From a bacterium (lineage in GTDB: Bacteria; UBP14; UBA6098; B30-G16): a DNA stretch of 36,664 nt. A model generated the notes under the pieces. That model had not been told where the DNA came from. It saw nothing but the letters and a program-made list of their open reading frames with translations, and made no database searches. Shown piece by piece: positions 4,481-36,471 of the stretch (within the stretch, counting starts at the first letter, position 1; the number at the start of each line of letters is the position of its first letter). The position numbers and the translations under genes are program-made. The stretch lies in assembly GCA_021161555.1 (NCBI GenBank), contig JAGHAI010000102.1:1-36664 (forward strand), given 5' to 3'.

Positions 4481-6274
4481 TTACTCTTTGTTCAAAATCG
4501 TGAATGTCACTCGTCGGTTCTTCGCTCTTCCTTCTTCTGTGCCGTTGTCGGCTATTGGTTTTTCCTCGCCGTATCCCTTCGCAACAATTCTGTCCCTGTC
4601 GATGCCGTTTTCAATTAGCCAGTTTGCAACCGACTGCGCACGCTCCTGCGAAAGTTTTTTATTATATCCCTTCGTGCCAACGGAATCGGTGTGTCCGGCA
4701 ATTTCGACGCGAATATTGGGATTATCCTTCATCAATTTGAGCAATCGCTTCAATTCACCTATGCTTTCGGGCTGCAGTTCCGCGCTGTTGAATTCAAAGA
4801 ATATATTGTGCAGAACAATTTGCGAACCGACTGCAACCGGTTTCAATTCTATGTCTTTTTTATATGTAGTAAATTCGTCTGCGTTTGTTAAATCTATGTG
4901 TCCCGAATGGAAAAGATAGCCTTTTTTTGAAATCGAGTAGCCATATTTTTCACCGGTTGGCAGAACAATTGAATAATATCCTGTTTTTGGGTTGCTGGTC
5001 GCAATGCCGAGATTTTTTCCATCGGAAAGGCGTTCATATTTTATATCCGCGCTCACGGGGTTGTTATCGGCATCTCTGACAATTCCTTCAATTGTAACCA
5101 CAGGTCTTGGTTTTGCCTCCTTTGGCAGTTTTACGCGAAAGATGTCCGTTCCACCGATTGAACCCTTTCGTGACGACACGAAATACACGAAGTCGCCCTG
5201 AGCGGGTATTGTATAATAGGCATCCCATCCCACTGTGTTGAGTTCCTTGCCGAGATTTTTGGGGAAAGACCAATTTTTCCAGGAATCGTCGAGCCTGCGC
5301 GTGAGAAACATATCAGCATTTCCGAGTGTTGGATGTCCGTCGGAAGAAAAATATAGAGTAACGCCATCGGGAGCGAGAAAAGGGGTTCCATCAGTTCCTT
5401 TAGAATTCACTGTTGGACCGAGATTTTCTGGTTTTGTAAAGGTTCCGTCTTCCTTTCTGAAGGATACATACAGGTCGAGGTCGCCATATCCGTCGTCCCG
5501 TTCGAGTGCGAGAATTAAGGTCTTTCCGTCGGCGGCGAGGCAGGCGCTCGTATATTTGTTGTCGTTGTAATAATCATCTATGACGACAGGTTCGGGAAAT
5601 GACCATTTATCTCCAAGATTGTGAGATATTGAATATCCAGCGTTTTTTGTGCCATCGGATAGATAAACTCCGTTGAGGAGCACGGTGTTTCCATCGGGCA
5701 ATACCGAAAGTATGCCATCGGAATATTCTGTATTAAGAGGTGCGCCGATGGGTTTCCTTTTGGTCCATTTGCCATCTTCTCCCAGTGTCGAAAAGTATAT
5801 ATCCTGGTTGCCGTTCTGGTCAACTATGAAGTATAATGTCTTTCCGTCGGGGGAAATAACGGGCATAATTTCCCCTTCCTTTGAGTTGACCGTCTCGGGC
5901 AGATGAATTGGAGATAATCCCTGCTCGGGTTCTGATACGACCTTTGCGAGTGTGTTCCATCTAACGCTGTTATCTCTGTCGTTTTTGGAAAGCCATTTAT
6001 ATGCTTTTTCTGCGTCTTTCCATCTTCTGAGAGCAGTATAGCAGATTGCGAGGTTGCGCATAACTTTCATCGAATCTGACCTGTTTGCATTTGGGCGACT
6101 CAAAAACCTCTCAAGGCGATTCGCCGCCTCGCCATATTTTCCATCATCAAGAAGTTTTTGTATTTCAGCAGCACCTTTACCATATCTTCTCGGCCGCCTG
6201 CCGCGAGGCCTGTGCTGGGAAAAGGATACCGTAAAAATAAATAAAATTGATATGAATAGAACAAGCCGCCTCAT
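4481..6274 (-). CDS. TPR-PD40-OmpA family outer-membrane/periplasmic protein
   Basis: This 597-aa exported protein starts with a signal peptide (MRRLVLFISILFIFTVSFSQ). The domains in order are: TPR-like helices at about 30-115; a PD40/WD40-like propeller at about 135-385 with repeated blocks such as SPDGKTLYF, LPDGNTV, APDGVTLYF and GGTDIFRV; a carboxypeptidase-regulatory-like beta sandwich at about 395-470; and an OmpA peptidoglycan-binding domain at about 485-597. The OmpA domain keeps the motif GHTDSVG and the RA/RNRR residues that contact diaminopimelate. The architecture matches Bacteroidetes PD40-OmpA proteins, including the T9SS-linked PorE group. It would tether an outer-membrane structure to the cell wall. 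GGAGGA precedes the ATG. Membership of a T9SS complex is inferred only. Confidence 0.88.
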   Translation of the reverse strand: MRRLVLFISILFIFTVSFSQHRPRGRRPRRYGKGAAEIQKLLDDGKYGEAANRLERFLSRPNANRSDSMKVMRNLAICYTALRRWKDAEKAYKWLSKNDRDNSVRWNTLAKVVSEPEQGLSPIHLPETVNSKEGEIMPVISPDGKTLYFIVDQNGNQDIYFSTLGEDGKWTKRKPIGAPLNTEYSDGILSVLPDGNTVLLNGVYLSDGTKNAGYSISHNLGDKWSFPEPVVIDDYYNDNKYTSACLAADGKTLILALERDDGYGDLDLYVSFRKEDGTFTKPENLGPTVNSKGTDGTPFLAPDGVTLYFSSDGHPTLGNADMFLTRRLDDSWKNWSFPKNLGKELNTVGWDAYYTIPAQGDFVYFVSSRKGSIGGTDIFRVKLPKEAKPRPVVTIEGIVRDADNNPVSADIKYERLSDGKNLGIATSNPKTGYYSIVLPTGEKYGYSISKKGYLFHSGHIDLTNADEFTTYKKDIELKPVAVGSQIVLHNIFFEFNSAELQPESIGELKRLLKLMKDNPNIRVEIAGHTDSVGTKGYNKKLSQERAQSVANWLIENGIDRDRIVAKGYGEEKPIADNGTEEGRAKNRRVTFTILNKE

Positions 6275-25005: not shown

Positions 25006-25266
25006 TCAAGGTATGCTTATTTTACCGCTCATGCCAATTTTAAGCCACTGCTCGTCGGTATATCGATAATATGTCGGCGCAGCAAACCAGAACCACAACG
25101 GAACATTTTCCTGCGGACATATATTCCATCCGCCATCGCCAAATCTGCACGAATCTGCCCAGAACAGAGTCGTATCCACAAAATCATAGCAGGTTGAATG
25201 CTGGTAATAGGAAAAGTTCCACAGTGATAAAGTCATTAACTTTGAATTTTCAAAATTCCAATCCAT
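25006..25266 (-). CDS. Small aromatic-rich hypothetical protein
   Basis: I do not recognise this 86-aa ORF. It is unusually rich in Trp, Tyr and Phe, has three cysteines, and ends in GMSGKISIP. Codon use resembles its neighbours (GAT, GAA, CGA, GGC mixture), and it ends 7 nt before rlmH on the same strand, which favours a real gene. Against it: there is no ribosome binding site at the ATG, and a TTGAAA/TATAAT promoter-like pair (25295-25290 and 25273-25268) abuts the start, so a transcript would begin inside the ATG or be nearly leaderless. It has neither signal peptide nor TM segment. It could be the C-terminal remnant of a longer protein, since a stop occurs 11 codons upstream (25299-25297). 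Confidence 0.45.
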   Translation of the reverse strand: MDWNFENSKLMTLSLWNFSYYQHSTCYDFVDTTLFWADSCRFGDGGWNICPQENVPLWFWFAAPTYYRYTDEQWLKIGMSGKISIP

Positions 25267-25317
25267 TATTATATTATAAAAAATTTTTATTTCAATCTAT
25301 CTATTAAGGAGATTATT

Positions 25318-26224: not shown

Positions 26225-29200
26225 ATGAAATTGCGAAGAATTATTTTTGGGATTTTTCTCTTTTCCGCGGTTTTTTCATTCGGTCTTCCGAGTGATAAAC
26301 TTGTCGGTCCTGTCGATTTGAAGATGCCCAAGATATTGGATTCCAGTTCTGGTAATCATCTCAAGATGTATGTTGTTGATGAGAGTTATCGTCGTCCGCC
26401 GACGATGGCTGAGATGATTTACAAAAACTGGAGAAGGGGCATTCTTAAATCACCCAGGCCCCTGCCGAGACAGTTGCCACAGGGATTGGAAAAATTTTAT
26501 GGTCCTCTTCCTGTTTCGCTTCCGAGTTCCATTGTGAACGGAGTTTCTGAAAAATCGGGCGGTTTTGAAAGGGTAATGGCGACTTCTGAAATGCTTGCCT
26601 ACGGTGGATTTGATGCTTCTGACCATCTCGTTTCGATACCTTCTACAAATCCGCAGAGACAGCCTTCCGTTGCAACGGATAGTTTTGGTGTCATCTATGC
26701 TGTCTGGGGCGAGGCGCTCGATGCAAATACCAATGCCATTATGTTTTCAAAGTCCACTGACGGCGGAAATACCTGGTCAACTGCGGTGGTTGTTGATAAT
26801 GTGGGAACGAATTTTATGCCTCGAATTGCCGTTCATTCGGGAACGAGTCCGTCCAACACAAGAGTTCATGTGGCGTATAATTACATAGAAATGCACATAT
26901 ACGATATTTACGACACAAGCGGAACTTATCTCGGTCAGGATACCACTTACGAAGGCGATGTCTATTATTCTCGTTCGAACAACGGCGGTGGGTCATTCTC
27001 GACATATTATGCCATAGCGAACAGCGATATTGACCTGATTATTATGCATTTCAATTATGATGAGGGCGGCGCAGATGTAACTGTGGATGAAAATAATGAT
27101 GTTGCGGTTGCTTATTATTCTCAAGCCGACGAAGGGCATCTCATCAGTATAGGGCTTTTGATAGTTTACATTATTTTGTATGGCGGACTTCCGCCTTTCT
27201 GGTTCGATTATACCTGGTACACTGTGTGTTATCGCGGCTCTCACAATGGCGGCGGTTCCTTTGAAGGCGAAGTGGAAGTGGTCAACGATTGGTTCGTCGA
27301 TAGGTGGAATCCTGGTATTGATGTGTATGGCTCGGGGACAGGCGCAGAACTTCACTGCACATATTCCGAAGCAGGATTTTTATCTCTGGCTTCTGCGAGT
27401 GCTTCCTATAAGAAAATAACTGACCCATTTTATAGCCCGTCTGTTGGAAGTGAAGTGTATGTCGCCGATGGATACACTTATGCGGGAAACACAAAAGTTG
27501 CCAGCGATGGAAATCCTTATGTTGCTATAACAGATGACTTTTCCTGGACAGATTACGATATTTATTTCACCCGCTCCACCGATGGAGGTGCATCTTTTCT
27601 CGACCCGATTGCAGTGGATATTGGTCTTTATGATTCCTACGAAGCTCGTCTGTGGCTCGACCTTGCCGACAATCCTTTCCTTGCCTGGACAGATGAAAGA
27701 GAAGGAAACTATGATATTTATTGTGTCTGGTCGGAAGACGCTGGCTCCACATTCAGGTCGGACTTTCACAAGGTCAATCACGACCCCTGGAACGACGACC
27801 AGTACTGGCCTGATTTATCTATGTTTTTACCCGATTCAATTCGTCGGCTCGATGTGGTCTGGTGGGACACATATTCCGACCCCGATGGAGATATAAAATA
27901 TAATGGCGCTACCTGGTGGCGAACGAATGTGGTCATTCAGATTCACGATACACTGGCAAATCCAATGGGGGGAACAGTTACAATAGATTACACTTCCTTT
28001 GGGGTGGATATCCATCGTGAATTGAATGAAGGAACCTGGATAATCTATCACGACCCATATACATCGATTACGGTGGATGGTATTTCGAGCGGTTCCGATG
28101 CTTCGGAGCGCTGGGTTCTCAACGATGATGGACACGATACCACATACACGCCCACAGGTCCTGGTGAAACGATTACGCTTACATATTTTGACCAGTATTA
28201 CACCACCTTTACGGTGACGAAGGGAAATCCGCCAGCTTGCACTCACACGCCGCCGACGGGAATCCCATTTACATATATGTTCTTTGCTGGTGTTCAGGTT
28301 GCCAATACAGATTACACTCATTGGGCTGATGTCCACGGGGAATATCAATATACGCCGAGTTATCCGCCTGGTGCGACGACGGAGCGGTGGCACACTCCCG
28401 AACCGACGGGATATGTTATGAGCCCCACTATTGCACCTACATATTATCATCAGTGGCAGGCTGACTTCCGCAATCCCAACAAGATGAACCCAAGCACGGG
28501 CGAATGCGCCTGCACACACACCGTTCCCACTTTTTCGCTCGTGCAGAGATATGAGGACGGAGAAAATCTCGGTGGCGCAAGTGGTTCATCCTTCTGGACG
28601 GACTGCGGTAGCATTTACGAATATGAAAATCCAAAGATGATTACTTCACAACAGAGGTGGTTAATTACAAGCGGGGCATCTGATGTGGTCGATGGCACCG
28701 GTCCTTATGCGCCCGATGTCTATCACCAGTGGATGCCGAGCATTGTTCTGGTTGGTCCCGAGTGCCCTGGCAATACGACCTGCAGTGAAGAATATTGGAA
28801 CGGCGGCATTGAATATTATGATGTGGATTTGTGCGGCACATATCAACCCTGGGTCGACTGTGCATCGCGGTTGAAGATGTGTGATTTCACCACTCTCGGC
28901 TGGGTTGCCAGAGACCCCACTGAATTTCCCTGTGTGGTTTCGGCATTTATGGCATCGATTAGATATGGAAATGTCGTCGCGGTGACGCTTCGCAACGATT
29001 TCGGATATGGTTTCATCGTCGCGGATGGCGATACATTTTCGTCCCCTTATGTCGCTGGTTGGGCGCCGAGCACCGACCATATTATTACCGCAGTTACTCC
29101 ACAGGTGTTCGGCGATACGAGATATGTGTGGGACCACTGGGATGATGGCGGCGCGGAATCTCATATGGTAACTGTTATTTCAGATACTGAATTCGTCGCA

Positions 29201-32200
29201 TACTTCAACAGGCAGTATTTTCTGGAAGTCAATTCTGACCACGACGCGCCCTATGGCGAGGGATGGTATGACGAAGGAGCAACCGCTGATTTTGGCGTGA
29301 ATATGCACGATTCCACAGGCGGGATAAGATATACTTTTACGGGATGGATTGGAACTGGTGCTGGTAGTTATACGGGAACGGATACGGCGCACACCGTCAC
29401 GATGAACAATGGCATTATAGAGGAAGCGACCTGGACTGTTGAATATAAATTGACCCTTGATTATACAGGAACGGACACTATGGTTCCTGCGCAATCTGGC
29501 GATGGATGGTATAGCGCTGCCGCGATGGCGTCAATTTCGACTGATTCCATAGTCGGCGATGAGGGAACTGATGATGATTCTCTTCGCTGGCTTTTCGACC
29601 ATTGGGAAAGTTCCCCTGCTGGAGCGACGATTGGCTGTCCCACCTGCGCGAACACATCGGTATTTATGGACCAGCCATACACGATGACAGCCGTATATGT
29701 TAGGCAATATCGTTTCTGGGTATATAATGACACTTCTGAAGCGACCTTTGGCAGTCCGAATCCGCCTGTGGGTGCGCACTGGTACACAGAAGGGGATAGT
29801 GTGGTCGCGAGTGTTGTGTCGCCTACTTCGGGTATGTATTGCACAGGATATACTGGCACAGGTTCGCTTTCCGATGGAACGAGTGATACTGCCGAATTTG
29901 TCATAAATGAGCCTTCTTCTGTGGAATGGCATTGGGGGGCACAATATGCTCTTGTTATTCACGCTGTTCTGGATGGTGTTTCTGGATATTCTGACTGGCT
30001 TCTTGGAGCTTGCGGGGCATCCCCGCCTGCCGGAACCACCTGGGTTATTCCTGGCAGTGATACCACTGTTCTTCTTGCAAATACAATTGTTCCCCTTGGT
30101 GGAACGATGAGGGATACCTGTTATATGTGGAGCGCTGAAGGTGCGCCCTGTTCTCCTGCCGATACCTGTTCAGGAACAGGAGATTCCGTTACCTTCACGA
30201 TGACGACAAATACTGTGTGGATCTGGCATTTCAAACAGCAATTTAAGTTCGATGTTCAATGCACAGTTGAGACAGCGGGAACGGGCTGTGGATACGATAC
30301 ACCTGACCCTGCTTATGGCACATATTGGATGGATAACGGTGCCACAATCACGGCAACGATTGATGCTTTTGATGGTGATTATGTCTGTGTGGGATATTTT
30401 TATGGCACTGCGCCTGCCTTCTCATCGGGATGGGGAACGAGCTGGACGCACACATTTACAGGACCGATTACTCTTGTCTGGCGCTGGCTGAATCGTGCCG
30501 ATGCTGAAAGTGTCCGTGTTGTGTCCGAACACGGAGAATGGGGATGTGTTCCGCCTGTCGGGTGGAACTTCTTCCCGCGAGGCGCTGTCGTTGACCTGTG
30601 GACGACATTATATGATGTCCCCGACAGCACCGAAGGAATTCGTTATCACTGCACAGGATGGACTGGAACGGGATGTATCCCTTCGTCCGGGACAGGCAAT
30701 GTGTGTTCTGGCGTCGCCATCAATGATTCGGGAACTATCGTGTGGAACTGGCAGCAGGAAAATCGCCTGCGAATATTCAGCGATTTCGATTCGCCATATC
30801 CCGATACAGGAGAATACTGGTTCACTGCGGGAATGAGTCTTCCCTGCTCGATTGCCAGCACAATAGATACGACGGATACCGGGACTTCCGTGTATTGCAC
30901 GGGCTGGCATCCCGATTTCTTCAACGGCGATACCTGTTTAACCTTCCCGCCTTATGATACAACAGATTACAATTTCACTCTGACGCTGAATTGCCCTGTG
31001 GACATCACCTGGAAGTGGAGCGATTATCTTGCGCCGCTCTATGTGTATTCCGACCACGATTCACCGATACCTTCCGATACGAGCTGGTGGATTCCTGGGA
31101 CTGACATCACCGCTTTCGTGACATCTTCTCCTGCTGATTGGGATACAGCTTATGGCGAGCGATGGATTTGCACCGGCTGGACTGGAACGGGAGATGTTCC
31201 CGCTTCGGGGACGGATATTGCGGTTTCCTTTACAATATACGATACTTCTTCGATTACCTGGCACTGGCAGCAGCAGTTCAGGCTGCACATCACGACGAAC
31301 AATTATCCTACTGTCTGGGGAGTGCCTTATCCCGATGTCGGCGACCACTGGTATGATGCCGGCGATTCTGTGTATTGCTTTACTCATCCCGTTGACATTG
31401 ATGGAACTGATACCGTATATTGCACTGGCATTCACGGGACAGGCTGTGTTCCTTCGGATTATCCGATGGCGGAAATCTGGCTGGAAATAAGTGAGCCTGG
31501 CACTCTGGAATGGCAGTGGCATCACGGGGATAGTATTGCCGCACTGTATGTGATTTCGGAACTCGACGACCCGTTCCCCTATGGAATTTCGTATTGGCTG
31601 ATTGGTGATACTGTGGATGCAACCGTTGACGATTCGGTATGTTACGAAGGCGAATGGGTTCACTGCATCGGCTGGACGGGAACGGGAGATTCCCTGCCTG
31701 CGATTGGTGATTCGACGCACATAGTGTTCACAATCTGGAATACCTGCACTCTGGAATGGGACTGGTCAACGGTAAAGCGTTTCACCGTTGTAAATCCTGG
31801 TGGACACGATACTCCACATCCGCCAGAGGGCGATTATCTGTATCCCACGGGCAGTTATGTTTCGGGCTATGTCGAATCTCCTGTTGTCGTAGAGGGTGCA
31901 GATACATATTATTGTGTGGGATATTACGGCACAGGCGACCTCGATTCTGTGTCTCCGCAGGTAGATTTTGACTTCACGATAACGCAGAATTCGTCAATCA
32001 CCTGGCGCTGGACTGACGAAGCATACCGTCTTGATGTGTATTCCGGCTATGGCAGTCCCCATCCCTATGGGACGACTTACTGGATACCGGGAAGCGATGT
32101 CCACGCCACAGTCGATGAAAATGTCACGCTCGCCGATGGAGTGCGCGCACACTGCATCGGCTGGGTGGGAACTGGTTCCGTGCCTTCGTCGGGGACGACC

Positions 32201-34435
32201 AATTCAGTTGACTTTGTAATAAGCGAAAATTCGTCCATCACCTGGCTCTGGGAAATTCAATACAGGTTTACAATAAGCGGTTGGCCCTCTGAATACGATT
32301 CGCCAACGCCAGATTACGGTGAATACTGGTATGCTGGCAGCACAGATGTCTCCGGTATGATTACGGAAAACCCTGTATATGTTGGTTCGCCGGATGATTC
32401 TATGTATTGTATTGGCTACATCGGCACGGGAGACCTGCCCGACACGAGCCATCAGACCGATTTTGACTTTACGATAACACAGCCCACGAGCATTACCTGG
32501 TTGTGGTATCCTGCGGATACCGTCGTGAGACTTATAGTTCACTGCCCTTATGATAATCCGATGCCTTACGGAACAACATATTGGCTCATAGACCAGTATG
32601 TTGTGGCGACGGTCGATTCTGTTGCCTATGAAGCGGATTCCACCACAAGACACGACCTCGTTGGTTTTGAAATCGCCGGTGCCATAGATTCGCTCGATTC
32701 GTCTGGTGTGAATATGGTCGTGTTCCAGATTGATACAAATACAGATTTGTGGTGGCTGTGGGACGAACAATATTACATTACGCTGGAGTATGAGGGGCTT
32801 CCAGGTTCTCCTGGTGAATTTGTCCCCGTTCAGATTGGCGAAGGATGGTATAGTGCGGGTGATACTGCCTGGATTGAGACGGAATCCCCTGTGGATTGCG
32901 GAAGTTATGGATATTATGGTTTCTACTTATGGACTTATGAACCTCACGATTCTGGCGTTGTGGCAGATACGCTGATGGCGGAAACTTATGTCATCGTCAA
33001 TGATAATTATACACTGACGGCGCATTATTCTCCTGCTTATCAGGTTGTCGTGAGCAAGGACCCCACAAGCGACAACTTTGGCTGGATTTTGATAGACAGC
33101 GAATACTACGACAGTGTTGCCTCCATCGTTGATTGGTGGGGTGGTGGAAGTTATCATTACATTGGTGTTCCTTATATTGATAGCGCCGCCTGGGGTGAGA
33201 GATATACATTTGAATATTGGTCTGACGGCGGGGATACAGTGCATATGGTTGGTCCAATAATAAGTGATACTTCCTTTACTGCGTATTACACGAGACAAAT
33301 AATGGCTGTTTTTGCGAAGAATCCTATTCACGAAACGGGCTGGCTCATTGTGGATAGTGTTTTCTACTGGGACAGCAATTATGTTTACGGCACGCTCACA
33401 TCGGTGTGGCATTGCGATACATTTGGCGACCCATCTTCGCCTGATTCGATTGTCTGCGATTCTATTGTTGTTTGTGCCGACAGCGCCACAACTGGATGCA
33501 GTCGTGCGCTGGTTCTGTGGTGGACACCAGGTGAAGTGCACTATATGGAGGCAAGTGTTGCAGATTCCTGCGTTGGAGAATGCGACACGGCGAGGTTCTT
33601 CTTCGACCATTGGTCAGATGGCGGTGACACTGCTCACTGGACCGATACAATCAATACTCCTGCTGCATTTACTGCGTTCTATGATTCGAGAATAAGGGTC
33701 AGGCTTTTCAAAAATCCGCCCGAACCCTATGGATACTTTATGATGAACGGGGAATATGTGTATGGAGTTTCGCAGTGCGATTTCTGGAGTCGTCCTGATA
33801 CTGTTGCGAACATCGGAGTTTCGGAATTTGATATATACGACGATACTCTCGGGTATGAAGGCGATACTGTGTATATATTCAGTAGTTGGAGCGATGGCGG
33901 TGCGATTATTCACGACATTGGTCCAATTACAGGTCCTGTGGAACGAACAGCCAATTACGATGTATTTCAGGCGAATTTAAGCATAACTCTTACGCCTTCG
34001 ATGCCTTCGGAATGGAATCTTGATACGCTTTCGCAGGGTGAAACGAAGGATATGTCGCCTGTCGATTCCATCAAGGTGGTCAATATAGGAAATGTGCCGT
34101 GCGACCTTGGTCTGTATGTCCAATCTGTTTCTCCTGTGGGATGGACGCCTTCGTATTATAGTGGACACGACAAGTTTACCCTGCTTGCAGAGTTTAACGA
34201 TGAAGTATATCCACCTGTCACATTTTCTCCCATACGGGATTATGTGAAATCAACCATCACCTGGGCGGATGAGGAAATCTTTGGTCCTGGTGGAGTTAAT
34301 TTGCTTCCGCCTCCATATACTGCTCCCGACTGTGAAGAACATATCTGGCTCAAGTTTATCGCACCGTCCTATACGACTGTGTTCACCGAGGTGAGAATTG
34401 TTCTTCAGGTTAAGGCGAAATATCATATGCCATAA
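26225..34435 (+). CDS. Giant secreted BNR/InlB-B-like repeat protein (2736 aa)
   Basis: This is a very large exported protein with a signal peptide (MKLRRIIFGIFLFSAVFSFG). Residues about 120-555 contain Asp-box (BNR) motifs such as STDGGNTW, SNNGGGSF, SHNGGGSF, STDGGASF and SEDAGSTF, which form a sialidase-like beta propeller; no sialidase active-site arginine motif was recognised. Residues about 560-915 hold longer beta-rich modules ending in YHQW. About 19 divergent InlB-B-like repeats follow to residue 2580, then a final beta-sandwich. About 50 cysteines are scattered through the protein. There is no T9SS sorting domain, LPXTG motif or autotransporter barrel, so its secretion route is unclear. 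GGAGGGG precedes the ATG. It is probably a surface or extracellular adhesin, filament or matrix protein; that is inference. Confidence 0.85.
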   Translation: MKLRRIIFGIFLFSAVFSFGLPSDKLVGPVDLKMPKILDSSSGNHLKMYVVDESYRRPPTMAEMIYKNWRRGILKSPRPLPRQLPQGLEKFYGPLPVSLPSSIVNGVSEKSGGFERVMATSEMLAYGGFDASDHLVSIPSTNPQRQPSVATDSFGVIYAVWGEALDANTNAIMFSKSTDGGNTWSTAVVVDNVGTNFMPRIAVHSGTSPSNTRVHVAYNYIEMHIYDIYDTSGTYLGQDTTYEGDVYYSRSNNGGGSFSTYYAIANSDIDLIIMHFNYDEGGADVTVDENNDVAVAYYSQADEGHLISIGLLIVYIILYGGLPPFWFDYTWYTVCYRGSHNGGGSFEGEVEVVNDWFVDRWNPGIDVYGSGTGAELHCTYSEAGFLSLASASASYKKITDPFYSPSVGSEVYVADGYTYAGNTKVASDGNPYVAITDDFSWTDYDIYFTRSTDGGASFLDPIAVDIGLYDSYEARLWLDLADNPFLAWTDEREGNYDIYCVWSEDAGSTFRSDFHKVNHDPWNDDQYWPDLSMFLPDSIRRLDVVWWDTYSDPDGDIKYNGATWWRTNVVIQIHDTLANPMGGTVTIDYTSFGVDIHRELNEGTWIIYHDPYTSITVDGISSGSDASERWVLNDDGHDTTYTPTGPGETITLTYFDQYYTTFTVTKGNPPACTHTPPTGIPFTYMFFAGVQVANTDYTHWADVHGEYQYTPSYPPGATTERWHTPEPTGYVMSPTIAPTYYHQWQADFRNPNKMNPSTGECACTHTVPTFSLVQRYEDGENLGGASGSSFWTDCGSIYEYENPKMITSQQRWLITSGASDVVDGTGPYAPDVYHQWMPSIVLVGPECPGNTTCSEEYWNGGIEYYDVDLCGTYQPWVDCASRLKMCDFTTLGWVARDPTEFPCVVSAFMASIRYGNVVAVTLRNDFGYGFIVADGDTFSSPYVAGWAPSTDHIITAVTPQVFGDTRYVWDHWDDGGAESHMVTVISDTEFVAYFNRQYFLEVNSDHDAPYGEGWYDEGATADFGVNMHDSTGGIRYTFTGWIGTGAGSYTGTDTAHTVTMNNGIIEEATWTVEYKLTLDYTGTDTMVPAQSGDGWYSAAAMASISTDSIVGDEGTDDDSLRWLFDHWESSPAGATIGCPTCANTSVFMDQPYTMTAVYVRQYRFWVYNDTSEATFGSPNPPVGAHWYTEGDSVVASVVSPTSGMYCTGYTGTGSLSDGTSDTAEFVINEPSSVEWHWGAQYALVIHAVLDGVSGYSDWLLGACGASPPAGTTWVIPGSDTTVLLANTIVPLGGTMRDTCYMWSAEGAPCSPADTCSGTGDSVTFTMTTNTVWIWHFKQQFKFDVQCTVETAGTGCGYDTPDPAYGTYWMDNGATITATIDAFDGDYVCVGYFYGTAPAFSSGWGTSWTHTFTGPITLVWRWLNRADAESVRVVSEHGEWGCVPPVGWNFFPRGAVVDLWTTLYDVPDSTEGIRYHCTGWTGTGCIPSSGTGNVCSGVAINDSGTIVWNWQQENRLRIFSDFDSPYPDTGEYWFTAGMSLPCSIASTIDTTDTGTSVYCTGWHPDFFNGDTCLTFPPYDTTDYNFTLTLNCPVDITWKWSDYLAPLYVYSDHDSPIPSDTSWWIPGTDITAFVTSSPADWDTAYGERWICTGWTGTGDVPASGTDIAVSFTIYDTSSITWHWQQQFRLHITTNNYPTVWGVPYPDVGDHWYDAGDSVYCFTHPVDIDGTDTVYCTGIHGTGCVPSDYPMAEIWLEISEPGTLEWQWHHGDSIAALYVISELDDPFPYGISYWLIGDTVDATVDDSVCYEGEWVHCIGWTGTGDSLPAIGDSTHIVFTIWNTCTLEWDWSTVKRFTVVNPGGHDTPHPPEGDYLYPTGSYVSGYVESPVVVEGADTYYCVGYYGTGDLDSVSPQVDFDFTITQNSSITWRWTDEAYRLDVYSGYGSPHPYGTTYWIPGSDVHATVDENVTLADGVRAHCIGWVGTGSVPSSGTTNSVDFVISENSSITWLWEIQYRFTISGWPSEYDSPTPDYGEYWYAGSTDVSGMITENPVYVGSPDDSMYCIGYIGTGDLPDTSHQTDFDFTITQPTSITWLWYPADTVVRLIVHCPYDNPMPYGTTYWLIDQYVVATVDSVAYEADSTTRHDLVGFEIAGAIDSLDSSGVNMVVFQIDTNTDLWWLWDEQYYITLEYEGLPGSPGEFVPVQIGEGWYSAGDTAWIETESPVDCGSYGYYGFYLWTYEPHDSGVVADTLMAETYVIVNDNYTLTAHYSPAYQVVVSKDPTSDNFGWILIDSEYYDSVASIVDWWGGGSYHYIGVPYIDSAAWGERYTFEYWSDGGDTVHMVGPIISDTSFTAYYTRQIMAVFAKNPIHETGWLIVDSVFYWDSNYVYGTLTSVWHCDTFGDPSSPDSIVCDSIVVCADSATTGCSRALVLWWTPGEVHYMEASVADSCVGECDTARFFFDHWSDGGDTAHWTDTINTPAAFTAFYDSRIRVRLFKNPPEPYGYFMMNGEYVYGVSQCDFWSRPDTVANIGVSEFDIYDDTLGYEGDTVYIFSSWSDGGAIIHDIGPITGPVERTANYDVFQANLSITLTPSMPSEWNLDTLSQGETKDMSPVDSIKVVNIGNVPCDLGLYVQSVSPVGWTPSYYSGHDKFTLLAEFNDEVYPPVTFSPIRDYVKSTITWADEEIFGPGGVNLLPPPYTAPDCEEHIWLKFIAPSYTTVFTEVRIVLQVKAKYHMP
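28970..33967 (+). repeat. About 19 tandem InlB-B-like protein repeats within the giant gene
   Basis: Units begin near 28970, 29218, 29447, 29713, 29951, 30248, 30509, 30767, 31037, 31283, 31544, 31781, 32030, 32267, 32531, 32777, 33044, 33299 and 33692. Spacing is 229-297 nt (76-99 residues), except for one of 393 nt. The core pattern is a short strand, then D-S/T-P-x-P-x-x-G-x-Y-W, then an alternation ending C-x-G-W-T-G-T-G, then S-I-T-W-x-W. The first and last few units use W-S-D-G-G plus T-A-Y/F instead. They resemble the divergent InlB B-repeat (Flg_new_2) class. DNA identity between units is low, so the expansion looks old. Confidence 0.8.
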
Positions 34436-34498: not shown

Positions 34499-34525
34499 AA
34501 CGGGGCAATTTAACATTGCCCCGTT
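34499..34525 (+). terminator. Hairpin terminator after the giant gene
   Basis: AACGGGGCAA (34499-34508) pairs with TTGCCCCGTT (34516-34525), a 10-bp stem with a 7-nt loop. The sequence after it is only moderately T-rich. It lies 63 bp past the stop codon and 30 bp before the next gene's start. Confidence 0.65.
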
Positions 34526-34554
34526 GGAGTTGTAATTACATCGGAGAGCAAGAA

Positions 34555-36471
34555 ATGTTCCGAAGGATACTTGCGCTATTTATCATTTTTGCCGCATTTT
34601 TGGATGTTTATGCTGTGATGTTTCCCAAAATACCTGTATCGGAAACTTTTGGTTCGTCGGGATGTGGCGCATGCAGACATTTTGATGAGCAGATGGGAGA
34701 AGTCTATCCGCCTTATATTGATTCCGTCGCTGTGGTGCTGAATATCGGCGGAATCACTCCTGAAGATGCATATTCGCGGATTGATTTTTACAGAGATTTT
34801 TATCCAATAGGTGGTATTCCCTGGACCGCTCTCGACGGAGTTGATATGGACCATTTCACAGCGCCGTCCGTTATGGATAGTGCTGTGTATATTTTTCACC
34901 GAACGCCTTTGTCTCCCATTGGGTTCGACCTGTTGTATTACGACCACGATTCAATTGTCGTTCAAATTTATACCGATTCGCTTTCGTATGCTGGCGAATG
35001 GTCGCTTGTGGTAGTTGTGGAGCGCGATTCCATAGACCTCGGCGATGATTTAATCGCCAATTGGGTGTGCAAGGGGATAATAACCCCTGATACGGGGGAG
35101 TTAATAGATATTGAAGCAGGTGTTCCATATCGCTGGAAGTGTGATAATATCATTCCTGCGGATGATGATGCAGGTTTGTATCGCGCTGTGTTCTGGCTGC
35201 AAAAGCCACACGATACGGAAATTGCAAACGCATATCACACGAGTCTTCGCCCGCGATTGCCCTTTGACTTCGAAGTGGTGCAGGATAAAAGGCGATATAT
35301 CATTCCTGCTGGTGAGATAATCGATGTGGGTATTATGCTTAAAAATTGGGGTTTGATGGACGATACATATCACACATATCTTGAATGGGATGCGCCTTCG
35401 GGCTGGGAATTTTTCTACAATTTCCCTGCGGAGCCAACTTCCGCCGATATTTTCGTCCGTGCCTTTGGAGATACCGTTTTTTCGATTTCATTTGTAGCGC
35501 CGTCTGTGGGAGTTGCAGACATCAGGTTTCTGACTTATTCCGACAGCATTCCCGATAGAATTGACACTCTTTTCTTTCAGGTGAATGCGGGCAAGGAATA
35601 TCTTCTCGTGTGTGATTCACCAACGCCTGATGATTCTGCTATTTACAAGGAAGCGATGGACGAACTTGGTGTGGATTATGTATATTGGGATACTCATCGT
35701 GATGGGACGCTTTTCAATGTCGATGAGGTCGGTGCAAGACGGATTTTCTGGTTCTGCGGCGAAGATACAGTGGAAAACATCTTCGGCGATGAAAGACAGG
35801 CGCTGGAGAATTTTTTGTTCGACGGCGGGGAACTTTTCATCTGCGGTTCCGGAATAGGCAGAGTTAATAGTTCTTCCTTTTTGTTCTTCAGCGATGCGCT
35901 TGGCTGTCATTATGACGGTGTCGCAGATGATTTCGCCAGTGCTGTGGCGTTGCCGTTGTATCCATTTATGGGATTTTTCGGAAATATCGAAGATGTTGTA
36001 TCGGCTGAAAAATTTTCCCCCGAAGAAACCAATGGCGGAAGAACGATTCTGCTATATCCCGATGGTTTTCCCGCTGCTGTGACAAAGGTGCAGGACGATT
36101 CGAAATCGATAATCGTTGGTTTTCCCATAGAAAAATTTTCAGGGCACGGTTTTGCTGATTTTTTCCAGCGGTGCTGGGAATTCTTCGACATCGGCTGGTC
36201 TGGTATTTCTGAAAAAGATATTCCTCAAAATCTTTCGGTGAATATTTTCCCCAATCCCTTCAATTCCGTCTGCGAGATTTACATCTTTTCGCCATCTGCG
36301 GGTGATTTGAGGATTTTCGATGTTTCGGGGCATAGCGTTGCACAGTTTCCAGTTGCAAGCGGACAAAATAGAATTAAATGGCGCGCCGATGGAATGAATT
36401 CGGGTGTGTATATATATCGGGTAGATGCAGAAAAAAATACATCTGCGGGAAAAATTGTATTTGTTAAATAA
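34555..36471 (+). CDS. Secreted thioredoxin-like protein with T9SS-type sorting domain
   Basis: This 638-aa exported protein has a signal peptide (first 20 residues, ending DVYA). A thioredoxin-like domain follows, with CGAC at residues 37-40 in GSSGCGACRHF and a cis-proline-type loop GGIPWTALDG. The middle is beta-rich. A region at about 345-545 resembles a ThuA/glutamine-amidotransferase-like fold (FLFDGGELFICGSG). The last 75 residues are a type A T9SS sorting domain: NIFPNPFNS, LRIFDVSG, GVYIYRV, ending GKIVFVK. It should be delivered to the outer membrane surface. The layout recalls Omp28-like thioredoxin proteins of FCB bacteria. ATG at 34555 has GGAGAG upstream; the TTG at 34516 lies in the terminator stem. 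Confidence 0.82.
   Translation: MFRRILALFIIFAAFLDVYAVMFPKIPVSETFGSSGCGACRHFDEQMGEVYPPYIDSVAVVLNIGGITPEDAYSRIDFYRDFYPIGGIPWTALDGVDMDHFTAPSVMDSAVYIFHRTPLSPIGFDLLYYDHDSIVVQIYTDSLSYAGEWSLVVVVERDSIDLGDDLIANWVCKGIITPDTGELIDIEAGVPYRWKCDNIIPADDDAGLYRAVFWLQKPHDTEIANAYHTSLRPRLPFDFEVVQDKRRYIIPAGEIIDVGIMLKNWGLMDDTYHTYLEWDAPSGWEFFYNFPAEPTSADIFVRAFGDTVFSISFVAPSVGVADIRFLTYSDSIPDRIDTLFFQVNAGKEYLLVCDSPTPDDSAIYKEAMDELGVDYVYWDTHRDGTLFNVDEVGARRIFWFCGEDTVENIFGDERQALENFLFDGGELFICGSGIGRVNSSSFLFFSDALGCHYDGVADDFASAVALPLYPFMGFFGNIEDVVSAEKFSPEETNGGRTILLYPDGFPAAVTKVQDDSKSIIVGFPIEKFSGHGFADFFQRCWEFFDIGWSGISEKDIPQNLSVNIFPNPFNSVCEIYIFSPSAGDLRIFDVSGHSVAQFPVASGQNRIKWRADGMNSGVYIYRVDAEKNTSAGKIVFVK

Follow-up and report, generated by a model that had tools for sequence, protein, structure and literature searches.

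How could a very large secreted protein be held at the cell surface when it lacks the sorting tail carried by the product of the next gene? The question is raised by P0001, a giant secreted protein of 2736 amino acids (aa) encoded at 26225-34435 on the forward strand of contig JAGHAI010000102.1 (assembly GCA_021161555.1, a bacterium of the UBP14 lineage), of which positions 1 to 36,664 are hereafter the window. The source genome, a metagenome-assembled genome (MAG) of 2.3 Mb and 93% complete, encodes SprA and has 103 matches to the sorting domain PF18962, about three quarters of them above the family cut-off, and the machinery of the type IX secretion system (T9SS) is therefore taken to be present. 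The gene downstream of P0001 (34516-36471, forward strand, likely start 34555) codes for a secreted protein ending in a T9SS type A tail (PF18962, TIGR04183) and serves here as a contrast case. P0001 ends in neither a PF18962 nor a CHU_C domain, as T9SS cargo of type A or B would, and its residues 1-60 hold no lipobox cysteine of the kind that anchors lipoproteins. The sequence-only reading of this locus had drawn the same contrast between the two genes, and it stands. Its statement that P0001 has no visible anchor was right for known families and is otherwise incomplete, since the tail of P0001, the last ~150 residues (here called CTX), is a recurrent C-terminal domain outside Pfam and NCBIfam. 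The sharing of this domain across the genome, which that reading proposed to look for by profile search, was clearly found, other proteins of the same genome carrying CTX, and the domain is almost certainly common to many proteins of the class.

Distribution and position of CTX

In P0001, CTX spans residues 2582-2736 (33968-34432, forward strand), and is supported by profiles, AlphaFold models and fold matches as a strictly C-terminal, probably pilin-like domain. It has no credible Pfam or NCBIfam match, and searches of both libraries with P0001 and with the putative partner CHAP (see below) produced nothing convincing. Phage records gave no match, viral contigs gave none, and sequence searches of the PDB returned nothing significant. 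With these 155 residues as the query, CTX turned up in reading frames of 2252, 1862 (truncated by the contig end), 3773, 1403 and 362 aa of the same genome and, with a weak match, in another of 588 aa; a profile search recovered this set together with two small proteins, 178 and 194 aa long. The 1403-aa carrier is a C11 peptidase protein, indicating that CTX is not tied to repeat rods. A search with alignment A1 detected CTX in all 17 genomes of the class examined, in 1-22 copies each. A wider survey of 386 genomes detected it in these 17 and in 12 of the 369 genomes outside the class, the 12 belonging to seven other families, with E-values down to 4e-26. When genome contigs were scanned with P0001's own domain alone there was no match; alignment A3 in the same scan yielded five named MAG loci, filed as 'bacterium', one of them as candidate division Zixibacteria bacterium 4484_93; the names of these MAGs suggest Guaymas Basin and Zodletone spring as habitats.

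The position of the domain is nearly invariant. In 67 stretches (the window plus the class loci), 84 of 85 CTX matches terminate no more than 16 residues before the stop codon, most of them within 5, and with the distant genomes included the count is 106 of 107. The sole exception is L138:1397-2098 (its contig is also that of L147), where a T9SS type A tail of intact appearance continues in frame from CTX; this gene is broken, its 5' part being frameshifted. A decayed T9SS tail was also seen 70 bases past CTX of the 3773-aa giant (C91), in frame and behind stop codons (L011:19105-19356); the relatives of this giant, L084, L085 and L086, have no T9SS tail beyond CTX, and the degraded tail looks like a leftover of an older gene end or of a former fusion. 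CTX is treated here as a separate module.

A further CTX gene has left a decayed fragment on the reverse strand of the window (25009-25296). The fragment retains the C-terminal 59 residues of the domain (profile independent E-value, i-E, 3.6e-17) and is 49% identical to the end of the 1037-aa CTX protein of L135, its nearest relatives being the CTX proteins of that length in L134 and L135. It sits between rlmH and a C26 amidotransferase gene.

Small CTX proteins and the CHAP operon

On contig C84 of the source genome, the genes for the CTX proteins of 1403, 178 and 194 aa follow each other in this order and are succeeded by CHAP, which is secreted, 276 aa long and probably made of two immunoglobulin (Ig)-like halves, and which has only weak fn3 and Cep192 matches. 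The order of one large and two small CTX proteins followed by CHAP recurs, whole or in part, at 12 class loci, L115, L123-L130 and L142 being loci that keep the C84 order to that extent. CHAP is present in every one of the 17 class genomes and in none of the 24 others included in that search. In the distant families the small CTX genes likewise adjoin relatives of CHAP, at L203, L204, L205, L207, L212, L213 and L215.

The domain is homologous between small and large CTX proteins (hhalign 99.2%), which differ in what precedes it. Just after the signal peptide and before the first strand of the domain, 19 of the 20 small class proteins have an alternating-hydrophobic strand of the form F-x-I-x-V-x-V, the remaining one being cut by a contig end, so that all 19 complete proteins possess it; at that place the motif occurs in none of the 62 larger CTX proteins. 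The motif count replaced a strict strand count, which had caught only 8 of the 28 small CTX proteins. Distant small proteins have starts that look similar by eye (for example, DTVNITVTIS). As a sequence pattern, this is what a donor-strand system would have, with the N-terminal strand on the small proteins and absent from the large ones, and shaft pilins and terminal adhesins of donor-strand fibres differ in the same manner. We also considered that T9SS-tailed neighbours might act as base subunits that donate a strand. The N-termini of a few neighbours at distant loci fitted by eye, but the strict count was 0 of 27 T9SS proteins, and the idea was dropped.

Predicted fold

Two AlphaFold runs were made, each on a six-sequence alignment, and the models were compared with the PDB by Foldseek. 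The pLDDT was 66.9 for CTX of P0001 and 78.5 for L145, a relative. Among the leading matches of both lists, donor-strand pilins outnumbered every other kind: FimG, FimA/FimI and CsuA/B for the P0001 model, and CfaB (E 1.4e-3, prob 0.99), CsuA/B (0.97), CanA and the Sulfolobus filament 7pnb (0.97) for the L145 model. Taken together, the pilin matches have prob 0.97-1.0, a best E-value of 1.4e-3 and TM-scores of 0.3-0.5. The models thus support a pilin-like sandwich of the Ig class, which does not in itself prove donor-strand assembly. CLIPPER (DUF11, 9ifr) also matched by fold, but this isopeptide-bonded stalk domain is not a C-terminal module, and it was rejected as the identity of CTX.

A possible mechanism and its alternatives

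CTX probably serves surface assembly or attachment, and among the ways in which it could do so our preference, itself rather short of an even chance, is for strand complementation. CTX of the giant would be an incomplete sandwich, completed in trans by a β-strand, which would be donated either by CHAP or by a small CTX protein through its N-terminal F-x-I-x-V-x-V strand. The giant would then be fixed through its C-terminus to a fibre or patch built of CTX proteins, its repeat rod and N-terminal propeller being directed outwards. The set would thus comprise a tip adhesin acting as acceptor only, shaft subunits acting as both acceptor and donor, and a two-Ig partner, a layout that could equally be that of the Gram-positive WxL cluster, with its large WxL, small WxL and WxLIP, or DUF916-DUF3324, proteins (PMC10599100). 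We infer the surface location of CTX proteins, their strand complementation and the direction of assembly; the explanation as a whole, with CTX giants fixed by strand complementation to a CTX-based surface fibre or patch, is a tentative one that falls a little below an even chance.

Several results weigh against it. The Foldseek comparison gave no match with E below 1e-3, the TM-scores are low, and MSP/PapD-like and other sandwiches are listed as well. The usher (PF00577) is absent from all 17 class genomes (the control was positive in E. coli), and PapD_N (PF00345), the domain of the periplasmic chaperone, gave no match over the cut-off in the same genomes. There is no profile similarity between CHAP and FimC (hhalign 0.5%), or between small CTX and FimA/F/G/I (0.2%). 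The Fisher test for the N-terminal strand in small versus larger proteins (p 1e-17) is overstated, because the small proteins are related to each other. The CTX giants mostly stand alone, outside the small-CTX operon. Finally, CHAP paralogues also adjoin other proteins, among them T9SS proteins that have no CTX; in several families the paralogue is followed by one of about 1170-1190 aa (L178, L179, L180, L185, L188 and L189). CHAP may therefore have a wider role and not be a dedicated partner of CTX.

The strongest rival is a T9SS-linked role, in which CTX would be a new sorting domain, recognised by the translocon, exported, and perhaps cleaved and attached in the manner of type A and B tails. 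Like those tails, CTX is obligately C-terminal on diverse secreted proteins; SprA and the PF18962 matches attest to the machinery in the same genome, and neither an usher nor another dedicated exporter was found for CTX. We nevertheless consider it unlikely, since CTX also occurs as small stand-alone proteins which carry their own N-terminal extension and lie in the CHAP operon, and the T9SS tails described so far are not known to occur as stand-alone operon proteins. The broken L138 gene has CTX and a type A tail in series, P0001 itself matches neither T9SS tail profile, and no T9SS tail was seen at two distant CTX loci, L203 and L204.

Alternatively, CTX might be WxL-like in the strict sense, binding directly to an envelope polymer, such as lipopolysaccharide or another surface glycan, with CHAP stabilising it and no fibre being formed. 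Only three matches to WxLIP_PGBD (PF06030), the WxLIP domain with which the genomes were searched, exist in the 17 class genomes, and all three lie inside CHAP genes; they are sub-threshold and no more than suggestive, because 9 of 14 control genomes match at the same loose level. WxL proper (PF13731) gave nothing above or near threshold in these 17 genomes, with a positive control in Lactococcus lactis. Moreover, WxL binds peptidoglycan, which in diderms lies beneath the outer membrane, and an extra N-terminal strand confined to the small CTX forms suits a donor role better, so that this alternative seems rather improbable. Terminal β-sandwich caps are common on repeat proteins, and CTX might do no more than cap the fold at the C-terminal end of extended β-rich proteins, with no role in sorting or attachment; this is quite unlikely, as CTX also ends a rod-free protein, the C11 peptidase protein, and a cap would need neither stand-alone forms nor an operon partner.

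Architecture and conservation of P0001

The reading frame of P0001 is intact over all 2736 aa. It begins with MKLRRIIFGIFLFSAVFSFG, which resembles a Sec signal and, together with the lipobox search, indicates a Sec-type signal peptide over residues 1 to about 20 (26225-26284). A probable β-propeller follows at residues about 125-560 (26597-27904): residues 1-600 contain five Asp-box-like matches, two of them overlapping (177, 249/251, 339, 451), a number equalled in none of 2000 shuffles. The YHQW modules at residues about 570-930 (27932-29014), with YHQW sites at 741 and 833, are shared with the paralogue C130 of the same genome. Within residues 1004-2268 (29234-33028) an iterated profile then identifies 15 divergent repeat units with confidence, each with an i-E of 5e-17 or better, followed by three further units at residues about 2285-2580 (33077-33964), one of which (2432-2484) scores E 3e-10 and two are marginal; with one more discerned by eye near residues 935-1000, the total comes to about 19, and a β-rich terminal segment closes the protein. 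P0001 holds 52 cysteines, many of them scattered across the repeat units.

The sequence-only reading had described a giant frame with a signal peptide, about 19 divergent repeats and a terminal β-sandwich, forming an extended repeat protein, and both the description and the extended character are borne out. Its labels of a propeller and of InlB-B-like units fared less evenly: Asp-box-like sites and repeats are indeed there, but P0001 matches no family of Pfam or NCBIfam at E<=1, so that 'BNR' and 'InlB-B-like' denote resemblances only. The divergent InlB B-repeat family PF18998 has no match in P0001; the paralogue C91 matches it at 1.1e-8.

Colinear single full-length matches of 2660-2772 aa, 43-63% identical to P0001, were found in G002, G003, G008 (twice), G009, G010 and G011. 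As they span other genera and families, P0001 is not a chance open reading frame. Orthology here rests on pairwise colinearity; we also tried to cluster all giants by colinearity, but the repeats merged several groups and only the pairwise results were used. In G009 and G010 another CTX giant, about 2260 aa long (L110, L112), immediately precedes the orthologue. Many adhesins vary in repeat number, whereas the length of P0001 is almost fixed across this divergence, which suggests a structural role.

T9SS-related genes in the window and the source genome

In addition to the type A tails, the source genome has a type B one: L173:31-3849 (G000:C107) codes for a 1273-aa von Willebrand factor A protein ending in CHU_C, and this genome accordingly uses both tail types. 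The gene lies directly upstream of a CHAP paralogue. The last 127 residues of the T9SS protein encoded at 34516-36471 recur almost unchanged at a contig end, at L012:4146-4529 on the reverse strand (G000:C167); either the sequence was duplicated recently or the assembly breaks off there within a repeat. At the other end of the window, 4481-6274 on the reverse strand encodes a 597-aa protein with matches, below the cut-offs, to the OmpA-type T9SS-associated families PorE and CHU_0125.

Comparison with known systems

Four known systems invite comparison with the CTX set. The WxL domain, of ~150-190 aa, is C-terminal on large surface proteins and stands alone behind a signal peptide in small ones; the common set consists of two domain proteins and one two-Ig-like partner, a strand of which is predicted to complete the WxL sandwich (PMC10599100). 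The CTX cluster is alike in that the domain proteins of both sizes are encoded together with the two-Ig partner, and it differs in belonging to diderm bacteria, in the extra N-terminal strand of small CTX proteins, and in that no C-terminal transmembrane helix was noted in CHAP. With chaperone-usher pili (FimA/F/G/H, FimC, FimD; CfaB; CsuA/B) the CTX set probably shares a pilin-like sandwich, as suggested by fold search, and it further shares a subunit-type domain that is C-terminal and without extension on the large proteins, an N-terminal strand of alternating residues on the small ones, and a secreted partner of two Ig domains; the CTX giants, of up to 3800 aa, set it apart.

Donor-strand filaments without an usher are known from an archaeon, the Sulfolobus thread, and from Bacillus, TasA (PMC9715654, PMC9674648). 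To these the CTX set is linked by the fold match to 7pnb and by an assembly that would likewise proceed without a known usher; no sequence relation was found, those systems are archaeal and Gram-positive, and the CTX set also includes large proteins and CHAP. The T9SS tails of type A and B (PF18962, CHU_C) occur in the same genome and resemble CTX in being strictly C-terminal on many secreted proteins, whereas CTX is longer, is without a T9SS profile match in P0001 and has stand-alone forms, with one broken gene bearing both in series.

The CTX set provides a partial answer to the question of how the largest proteins of this lineage could be held at the surface without the T9SS tail found on as many as about a hundred of their neighbours, and CTX and CHAP make up a domain and partner, absent from Pfam and NCBIfam, for which other genomes can be searched. 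If strand complementation is true, it would constitute a further route to donor-strand surface structures. The fullest picture, an usher- and PapD-free system of uncultured diderms in which rods of up to 3800 aa would be mounted on small-CTX fibres by strand complementation, with a two-Ig partner and beside type IX secretion, is also the one that we regard as more doubtful than its mechanism taken alone. The shared tail, its small stand-alone forms and their conserved partner suggest that these bacteria, besides type IX secretion, have another means of constructing what they display on the surface. By analogy, we read the CTX system as one that may work like the systems above, yet is a member of none of them by sequence, its cluster reproducing the layouts of both the WxL set and the chaperone pili with unrelated sequences.
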